Source: Haloferax mucosum ATCC BAA-1512
GTDB taxonomy: Archaea > Halobacteriota > Halobacteria > Halobacteriales > Haloferacaceae
Reading direction: 5' to 3'
DNA length: 64,000 nucleotides
Assembly: GCF_000337815.1 (NCBI RefSeq)
Contig: NZ_AOLN01000004.1
Coordinates: 62,001 to 126,000 of the forward strand
Below, piece after piece: positions 57,024-60,246 of this stretch. The notes under the pieces are model-generated. The model was not told where the DNA came from and did not search any database. It saw only the letters and a program-made list of their open reading frames with translations. Made by a program: the position numbers and the translations under genes. The stretch's first letter is position 1; each line of letters opens with the position of its first letter.

Positions 57024-57262
57024 GCGAACGGTTTGGCAGGCTCTCGACTAAACTGTCTCTGTGGTGACGTTCGTGTTTAGCGTCTGTGTGCGACCGCAAG
57101 GCTCGACTCGTAATCCGAACCTGAGTTGTTCGCTACCGGTGGTTCGCGTGGGGTATCCCTCCTACTCCAATTCGCTGGGCTTCTTGGGTTGGTACCGTGT
57201 CTCTGTGGCACAATTGTCAGATTGGGCTTAATCATACAATAGTGATTGTTTGAACAACTGGG

Positions 57263-57392
57263 CACTGTCTAGATAAGGGACGAGCAGGTCGAAGAGTTAG
57301 TGATCTATGCTACCCTCAAACCTGCTCAAAGAGGGTTTAGAGACTGCTACGCTTGAATGTTGGCAGCGAGAGCGGACGGCGACGCCCGTCCG
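57263..57392 (+). mobile_element. Truncated IS6-type element, left end
   Basis: About 130 nt match the left part of the element at 59332: terminal repeat CACTGTCTAG (57263-57272), then the start of the transposase from ATG 57307 (MLPSNLLKEGLETATLECWQ, RERTATPV). Similarity ends at CGTCCG (57392), after which sequence is unrelated. At the break lies a short hairpin, CGGACGG-6-CCGTCCG (57373-57392). The right end is missing. Confidence 0.7.
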
Positions 57393-57780
57393 GTACCGAG
57401 ACTGGCGAGGAGTACACCAGGGGATAGTACGAGCGGGCCACATCGAGATGAGTGGCATGGTCACTACTCAGTTGAAACCTTTGCCCGCCGATATGGACCT
57501 GACAAGACACCACTGAAGCGGCGGGTTCAAGTATTCTGGACACCCAAGCGGCCCAGATCATCTGCTCTGGCGACTACAGAGACATCTCATACGGACCAGA
57601 CTGGTACAGGCAGTGCAAATGTGCGCTGGAATGAGACCACTTTGAGTGCCAGAGTCTGGGCTATACGATTGACCGAAAGACCCACCGCGAACGCTGGGGT
57701 CCCGACCTGAACGTCCATCGTGACTTCCGGGAGACCTTCCACCCAATCAGACTACTGGCCGTATCTGTAATACTTTCTCA
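57393..57780 (+). pseudogene. Decayed coding sequence next to the IS remnant
   Basis: A frame from about 57503 reads TTEAAGSSILDTQAAQIICS, GDYRDISYGPDWYRQCKCAL, then a TGA, and continues in phase as DHFECQSLGYTIDRKTHRER and GPDLNVHRDFRETFHPIRLL. It has several Cys and a conserved look, but no start and an internal stop. It is best taken as a broken gene of unknown family, perhaps carried or cut by the insertion sequence. Confidence 0.4.
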
Positions 57781-58770: not shown

Positions 58771-59331
58771 ATTCGGAAGGTGGCCACGCCAGTCAGGAAA
58801 CTCAAACTGGGGGGTCTATCCTCCCGAAATGAGATGTACAACCAACTGGAAGAGATAGAATCATCCACAAGTGAATTCTGATCCTTCACAGCCACCCATC
58901 ATTTTCACGTTGCATCTGGCGCAGGTGTAGCACTGCCGAAATACGAACTACGTCACCACTTTTCAGGCGCTCTACGCTACGATTCCGACAGAAGAGGGTA
59001 GAATTCAGACTACAACAGAGTGTGAGTCGTCTCTCCACGTCTCCCGTATCCTCCTGCTACCGCTCTTTTTGACATTTAATTCGGCTAATATCGGGTGGTT
59101 TATCCATCCGTCACGCACATTTTCGTTCTACCATTGCGGTCGTCGTTTCGTCGAGAATATTGTAACGGGGAGGGGATGCGACCGACGTACCTCTCACGCG
59201 ATTTGCGTCGTTTCTAGTTCGATCTCCACTTCGATATTATCCAAGAAGGATAGGGTGCAAACGCCGCTGACTCTTTCCGGCCGAGGGGCCGTCAAGCAAT
59301 GACAGTCTACAGCCAATATACCAGAATTGGG
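58771..59331. other. Spacer with a possible Cys-rich fragment
   Basis: No intact gene in 561 nt. On the minus strand 58862-58945 a 28-codon frame ends QCYTCARCNVKMMGGCEGSE, FTCG, stop, with six Cys in zinc-knuckle spacing, but a TAG lies just upstream and no start exists; it is probably the tail of a broken zinc-ribbon gene. Confidence 0.3.
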
Positions 59332-59375
59332 CACTGTCTAGATAAGGAACAAGCAGGTCGAAGAGTTAGTGATCT

Positions 59376-60165
59376 ATGCTACTCTCAGCCCTGCTCAAAG
59401 AGAGTTTTAGACACTACTACGCTTGAATGTTGACAGCGGGGGCGGACGGCGACGTGACGAGACGCAAAGCGTCTCGTTCGCACACCAGAAATCTTCGATT
59501 TCTGGGGACGTTCACGAGAGCAGTGCTCTCGTGCAGCCCATCAGAACGCAAAGCGTTCTGAGGACGCCCACCTGGGCGTTCGCCGTCCGACTCTATATTG
59601 CCGGTCTTTCAATTAGAGAGATAAATATGATTCTCCGTCTACTCGGTGTGGAACGTTCGATTCAAGCAGTTTTTAGTGGGTACATGCATTGTGTGATAGC
59701 GTCTCAGGCCCGCCGAAGGCGACGCAGAGGCGGACCGCAGTCGACGAGACCGCTGTCAAAATCAACGGCGAGTGGTCTTGGTTGTACGCTGCAATAGACC
59801 TCAACACAAAAGTGATTCTTGACGTTGCGCTGTTCAAGCGTCATGGAACTGACCCGGCGGCTGCATTTCTCCACGGAGTCTGTGAGAAACACGACTGTTC
59901 AGAGACGATGTTTCTGGCTGATGACTTTGGACATCGGACTGCATTCTCTCGATTAGGGTTGAACGGTCCGGTTGACGACACAGACCGAAACCTGATTGAA
60001 AAGTGGTCTCGCACATTCAAAATGAGGGCTAACCGTTTCCACAATTCATGGGTTGGTAGTCGGCTGAGCGTTCGCAAGTAGCTTGCAGTGTTTGTTCATT
60101 ACCATGATTTCCAACGACCGAATCAGTCGCTTGACGGAAGAACACCAGCTCAGGAGGCTAACTAG
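59376..60165 (+). pseudogene. IS6-type transposase pseudogene
   Basis: Comparison with the copy at 57307 shows an extra T near 59404 (frameshift), TGA for TGG near 59430, the hairpin insert at about 59455-59582, a further frameshift near 59700, and TAG where the family has Trp at 60079. Between lesions the DDE fold is readable: VRLYIAGLSIREINMILRLL, VDETAVKINGEWSWLYAAID, HDCSETMFLADDFG, NLIEKWSRTFKMRANRF and, after the TAG, LAVFVHYHDFQRPNQSLDGR. The catalytic Asp, Asp and Glu are all still present. Confidence 0.75.
59443..59589. repeat. Five-hairpin array closed by an outer stem
   Basis: An outer 9-bp stem (CGGACGGCG 59443-59451 with CGCCGTCCG 59581-59589) encloses five perfect hairpins. Four have 9-bp stems and 3-nt loops: 59457-59477 (loop AAA), 59485-59505 (TTC), 59513-59533 (AGT), 59541-59561 (AAA), spaced by exactly 7 nt so the period is 28. 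The fifth, 59564-59579, is shorter. Stem sequences all differ. Compared with the copy at 57373-57392, the array was inserted into the loop of a pre-existing hairpin in the transposase gene. See findings. Confidence 0.9.
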
Positions 60166-60171
60166 ACAGTG

Positions 60172-60246
60172 ACTTGTCCTTCTTTGTCTCTCCCTCAAAT
60201 ATACAAATCATCCGACTATTCAAAAGAATAGTAAAATAAATGACTA
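60172..60246. other. AT-rich flank of the insertion sequence
   Basis: A short AT-rich stretch between the IS right end and the zinc-ribbon ORF. It contains CAAATATACAAATCA and no gene. Confidence 0.3.

Follow-up and report, generated by a model that had tools for sequence, protein, structure and literature searches.

A hairpin array in a decayed IS6-type element

The window, by which we mean the whole 64,000-nucleotide stretch of Haloferax mucosum DNA that was analysed, carries a decayed IS6-type insertion sequence (Table 1). Its transposase remnant matches Pfam PF13610 (DDE_Tnp_IS240), and L316, a relative that is empty at the site described below, has a 226-codon frame. Within the transposase gene lie four hairpins with perfect 9-bp stems and 3-nt loops, set apart by 7-nt spacers in a 28-nt rhythm from 59457 to 59561, just as the first-pass annotation of this DNA had described and placed them, and no further 9-bp/3-nt hairpin occurs anywhere else in the 64-kb window. 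Compared with shuffled sequences, the array region folds with z = -8.9 as DNA and z = -10.1 as RNA. Double hairpins numbered 0 in a 380-kb control from another genome (G026, 68% GC) and 0 in all shuffles, and the comparison with shuffled sequence that the annotation had proposed found the array geometry to be far commoner than in shuffles. The array is real rather than a product of chance folding, though not the only one of its kind.

The array is made of two tandem double-hairpin modules, A and B, which are side-by-side insertions with the CG at 59509-59510 common to both, and it is no designed object. Module A has the usual CGTT tag minus one T. Where the four units had been taken for unrelated sequences that agree in geometry only, alignment identifies units 1/2 and 3/4 as homologous modules, with ACGAG and CAGAA outer stems, a GC(A/C)CA spacer and CG tags in common. 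The stems looked unrelated because the two hairpins of each module differ and because A and B have diverged; on this alignment, all four hairpins obey one grammar.

Both the fifth, shorter hairpin and the stem that encloses the whole are present, but neither belongs to the array: they are the IS6 element's own coding palindrome (RTATPVRAFAVR), and the fifth-hairpin stretch is found in empty IS6 copies as CGCCCGTCAGGGCG. As the annotation had anticipated, there are related copies without the insert, which read GGACGGCGACG/CCCGTCAGGGCGTTCGCCGTCC and encode RTATPVRAFAVR, in 35 of the 148 genomes of the family (14 genera); in several of these copies the transposase frame is intact, at about 226-228 codons. 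Measured against them, the array did not take the place of a smaller hairpin's loop; it entered one arm of the palindrome behind GGCGACG, with no loss of sequence. The 112-bp insert shifts the transposase frame and brings an immediate stop (ACG TGA), and the window copy is inactivated and dead. An exact search of GTDB contigs with the left junction gave no match beyond the genome itself. The 7-bp hairpin at 57373-57392, which had been offered as the state before insertion, arose by the loss of 15 bp between the CGTC repeats of the coding palindrome. It lies in the remnant of a second IS6-type element (57261-57420) of the same subfamily as the host.

Table 1. Features of the array and its host element, in window positions
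Feature	Position	Strand	Sequence	Basis or comparison
Decayed IS6-type insertion sequence (host)	59330..60172	+	ends GGCACTGTCTAG / CTAGACAGTG	sequence
IS6 coding palindrome, left arm ('enclosing stem')	59443..59452	+		empty copies
Module A	59453..59510	+	CG-TG-(ACGAGACGC AAA GCGTCTCGT)-TCGCACA-(CCAGAAATC TTC GATTTCTGG)-GGA-CG	covariance model R1, 77.1 bits; alignment A1
Net 112-bp insertion	59455..59566	+	GGCGACG/CCC in empty copies	empty copies L314, L316, L320
Module A, hairpin 1	59457..59477	+		
Module A, hairpin 2	59485..59505	+		
Module B	59509..59566	+	CG-TT-(CACGAGAGC AGT GCTCTCGTG)-CAGCCCA-(TCAGAACGC AAA GCGTTCTGA)-GGA-CG	covariance model R1, 71.5 bits; alignment A1
Module B, hairpin 1	59513..59533	+		
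Module B, hairpin 2	59541..59561	+		
'Fifth hairpin'	59564..59579	+	ACGCCC-ACCT-GGGCGT	inner IS6 coding palindrome, no module
IS6 coding palindrome, right arm	59580..59589	+		empty copies

A double-hairpin family of the Halobacteriales

Among 22 aligned double hairpins, the consensus of the first half is CG-TT(N)-[ACGAGnnnC NNN GnnnCTCGT], followed by a spacer with GC(A/C)CA, and that of the second half is [(C/T)CAGAAnnC NNN GnnTTCTG(G/A)]-GGA-CG; by this agreement the 22 are members of one homologous family. The general plan, CG/TY-hairpin-(4-8 nt)-hairpin-RA/CG, fits into 56-60 bases, its stems measuring about 9 bp and its 3-nt loops being closed by C-G pairs. The exact 28-nt period is local to the window; across the family, spacers are mostly 4-8 nt long with a peak at 6-7 nt, and stems mostly 7-10 bp, the mode being 9 bp and the full range 7-11.

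Pairing is kept in 96.6% of the cells of the 22-member alignment. Two-sided changes number 32, and none of 500 shuffles did as well. Among 245 distinct double hairpins, the C-G closing pair is found in 99% (against 51% of control hairpins) and GNA or TNC loops in 61% (against 12%), counts that are not fully independent since the copies are kin by descent. GNA triloops closed by G-C, such as GCGAAGC, form extraordinarily stable DNA mini-hairpins (PMC4686876), so that the bias in loops and closing pairs favours folding as DNA rather than RNA. Together with the compensatory stem changes, the GNA/TNC loops point to a selected single-stranded DNA fold. On a given strand the GNA and TNC loops are about equally frequent, which is a poor fit to a strict one-strand substrate.

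At all loci of type A modules, the 3-nt loops change far faster than their 90-98% identical flanks. The loop pairs TTT/AAA and GCA/TGC suggest occasional inversion and otherwise exchange between copies; simple inversion was rejected as the route of loop change, with reverse-complement loops barely in excess (26 of 184 compared with an expected 10%). Hybrids of two type-1 hairpins, in either order, were observed at the IS605 site in L041, L055, L226 and L227, as if half-modules recombine.

Copying, which the first-pass annotation had held unable to explain the units, does explain the array, because the units are copies of modules common across the order: blastn found close relatives in 118 of the 148 family genomes and 25 of the 28 genera, most of them double hairpins rather than arrays. 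When a covariance model was run over 295 genomes of the phylum, 55 matched, nearly all of them Halobacteriales, where nearly every sampled genome has the family; almost none matched outside that order, with a few weak matches in two other families. The exact module pattern recovered 96 stretches from GTDB contigs, all haloarchaeal among the matches listed and from about 24 genera, and modules were found on 70 plasmids (27 named genera, again all haloarchaeal among the matches listed). Carriage by viruses was rejected, as neither phage records nor IMG/VR gave a match. No module was found in Haloquadratum plasmid PL47. Modules occur in both orientations, within coding genes and in many unrelated places. 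One genome (G272, L080-L093) has very long mixed arrays in which the hairpins are alike in geometry and come in many stem sequences, with five plus nine consecutive hairpins in L092.

Insertion sites and stepwise growth

IS605/TnpB and IS6 elements host many of the modules, and the CG sites that these occupy recur. The flanks of type A modules, from many genera, fall into a few recurrent sites. One is in the left part of IS200/IS605 elements, where the module of L308, an annotated plasmid, stands about 110 nt upstream of tnpA; the others are the tnpB 3' region (L055), a palindrome close to tnpB genes and the palindrome of IS6. Among copies of the IS605 site, 9 are empty, 33 have a 57-nt type A insert, 4 have other modules of 52-55 nt and 3 have two modules. 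In all compared cases the empty site has one CG and the occupied site a CG on both sides; this may reflect either a 2-bp duplication or insertion beside the CG, both of which fit the sequences.

The IS6 site offers a graded series. It is empty, with the frame intact, in L314, L316 and L320; it holds A alone in L013, L015, L016, L018 and L025, B alone in L012 and L014, A.B in the window and in the Haloferax larsenii plasmid L257, and A.C.B, with C inverted, in Haloferax mediterranei pHME132 (L256). In L011, A carries a nested second kind of double hairpin (D), and C.B is present as well. The series is direct evidence of arrays growing through successive insertions. The 57-nt module in the IS6 copy L025 keeps the frame.

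The nested double hairpin of L011 (1370-1420) has the form TCT-CGCAGAATC...CGGAAACCA...-AGA and is inserted within module A's spacer rather than at a CG; it is perhaps a second family with other ends. A second array in the H. mucosum genome (L005, C10:60464-60600) consists of C inverted, then A, then a truncated B that ends after CACGAGAGC and is fused to the 3' part of a transposase gene, which places a deletion endpoint within the hairpin.

The cleanest case of insertion is a prolyl-oligopeptidase-like gene of G002 (L123, 420-478), which reads TRLIRCD-VHESRSDSLASQNAERSGD-AADADWERTF. The insert of 57 bp, or 19 codons, follows GACG in frame, and congeners have TRVLRCDAAGPDWERTF or TRILECDAAAADWERTF at the same point with no insert. 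Empty matches spanning the site came from six other species of the genus, and two of them were translated and checked.

Insertion sites in palindromes include those in IS6, L057, L120, L122, L124 and L125. These examples suggested a general preference for palindromic targets, which was not supported for short inverted repeats, as 52 distinct contexts had no excess of them (4.38 vs 4.31 bp, p = 0.61). At L124, L127, L129, L131 and at numerous points in G002 and G030 there is an intergenic multi-copy palindromic repeat (CGCGGCCGGC...GCCGGCCGCG, with a GGGGAGGGGTGGGG side), and this repeat is itself hit by modules.

Mobility, alternative readings and related repeats

We think it likely that the array consists of two adjacent copies of a non-autonomous mobile palindromic element, each with two DNA hairpins. 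At the sequence level, the comparisons above establish that the homologous family is dispersed, that its paired stems are under selection and show compensatory changes, that modules insert precisely at CG when set against empty sites, and that arrays grow step by step at one site, in tandem and by nesting. The evidence favours a dispersed, mobile hairpin family with conserved structure, and the earlier suggestions of a 'self-propagating palindrome family' or a 'folded single-stranded recombination or integration substrate' came near to this. The folded single strand of a module would be recognised, as is suggested by the conservation of the outer stem halves and CGTY tags, the covariation of the inner pairs and the stable 3-nt DNA turns of the loops. 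The module would then insert at 5'-CG-3', mostly G[GA]CG, leaving the target DNA undeleted and a CG flanking both ends. Because every insertion supplies another CG, the next module could insert alongside and the array would grow. In the window, a first module would have entered the coding palindrome of the IS6 transposase and a second would have followed, both now carried by the inactivated element. We infer a single-stranded DNA intermediate and a trans-acting enzyme that cuts at CG, possibly an HUH/Y1-like nuclease. In the transposition of IS200/IS605 and REP elements, hairpins are recognised and insertion follows short motifs with no duplication, a logic that the modules would appear to resemble.

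The search for an enzyme that mobilises the modules yielded no candidate. A Y1 transposase was rejected as a dedicated mobiliser, given no link between Y1 presence and modules and no autonomous form. G364 and G016 lack a Y1 transposase and still carry at least 16 modules, modules near Y1 genes occupy the same insertion sites as elsewhere, and none of 80 loci holds an autonomous version, with a gene between hairpins or hairpins at both ends of a gene. We are doubtful of the bolder proposal that the order harbours purely structural mobile DNA, in which interchangeable double-hairpin triloop cassettes insert at CG and stack, their stems diversifying while the geometry is kept, through a kind of enzyme not yet known to mobilise repeats.

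Alternatively, the modules could be old insertions in a few IS605 and IS6 lineages that ride on these transposons, with recombination swapping modules and loops and no self-movement now. About 33 of the copies at the IS605 left-end site are of the same type and orientation, type A copies from many genera sit at a few transposon sites, A.B with the same lost T occurs in two IS6 subfamilies (the window and L257), and loops differ despite 90-98% identical flanks, all of which speaks for passive carriage. Part of the spread is indeed carriage by host insertion sequences rather than module movement, because many copies stand at a few old transposon sites. As an account of the whole, it is possible if somewhat unlikely, since it sits badly with the insertion in the single-copy-like G002 gene whose congeners are empty, the G002 modules that adjoin unrelated intergenic palindromes, the inverted C between A and B, and the nested D.

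It is also improbable that the modules are transposon inactivators made or tolerated by the host and kept since they interrupt IS605 and IS6 elements, as was proposed for SMR-A in Haloquadratum (PMC3119063). Their concentration in IS605/TnpB and IS6 elements and the inactivated element of the window agree with that idea, but the IS605-site module lies outside tnpA (in L308, upstream of it), 57-nt modules can preserve the frame of IS6 (L025) and of a host gene (L123), and a general preference for palindromic targets was not supported in the 52 contexts. A function at the RNA level, with the array as a structured RNA, terminator, processing signal or regulator, would account for the very stable RNA fold and the compensatory pairs. 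We regard it as very improbable given that Rfam returned no match at E<=1 in a 4-kb region, that modules stand in both orientations, in coding genes and in many unrelated places, and that the loops are DNA-type GNA/TNC triloops on either strand.

Viewed as mobile elements, the modules seem comparable to bacterial CGTC-tagged REP dimers, Rickettsia RPEs and Haloquadratum SMR-A. RPEs are palindromic repeats that stand in protein genes with the reading frame kept; in-frame palindromic insertion is alike in both, whereas the sequence, the two hairpins and the archaeal host differ. RPE-4/6 have been equated with CGTC REPs (PMC3733652), which are nearest to the modules in architecture and have no associated transposase (Di Nocera 2013, PMC3733652). 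Both have a CGTC-type tag outside an 8-9 bp stem, head-to-head dimers, heterodimers, intragenic copies and no transposase gene attached, with the module tag agreeing in part (CGTCC in antisense at hairpin 2, CGTT at hairpin 1). However, CGTC REPs are bacterial with loops of 4-5 nt, while the modules are archaeal with 3-nt loops and one CGTT half, and form arrays that are common in some genomes. Because of the 4-5 nt loops we do not claim membership of the CGTC REPs, of which no archaeal family is reported in PMC3733652. REPINs, mobilised by RAYT transposases (Bertels and Rainey 2011, PMC3116915), are likewise two-hairpin non-autonomous elements and are mobile as dimers, but they have a GTAG tag and a linked RAYT, where the modules have neither, carry CGTT/CGTC tags and combine two hairpins of different sequence.

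Nearest in the same organisms is SMR-A, the small mobile repeats described from Haloquadratum walsbyi, with a mobilisation that was called enigmatic (Dyall-Smith 2011, PMC3119063); apart from this paper and a generic survey (PMC12306157), the searched literature contained no haloarchaeal REP or hairpin repeats. SMR-A and the modules are both haloarchaeal, short, multi-copy, without transposase and found in IS605-type elements, with no target duplication (a 2-nt CG duplication being possible for the modules), unexplained mobilisation, and families that have common features but no sequence similarity. By its description SMR-A may be distinct, with about 110 bp, prominent inverted ends and reports only from Haloquadratum, against about 57 bp and two hairpins in the modules. 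SMR-A also inserts in near-terminal palindromes, a preference that several module sites suggest and that the short inverted repeats of the 52 contexts do not support as general. PATEs and terminal-only IS605 derivatives (PMC3119063) are similarly short, with two palindromes and no duplication. The long GC-rich palindromes at the ends of the host IS605 elements are different from the module hairpins.

REP-like palindromes are a textbook feature of bacteria. No defined archaeal family of them was found in the searched literature; the modules form one that occurs almost throughout an order of archaea, some of whose members (Haloferax, Halorubrum) are genetically tractable. What moves them is a question common to CGTC REPs and SMRs, and it can be tested with the listed empty and occupied sites. 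Modules change transposases and give host genes additional in-frame peptides, and their presence across the order accounts for many odd hairpin-rich stretches of haloarchaeal DNA.
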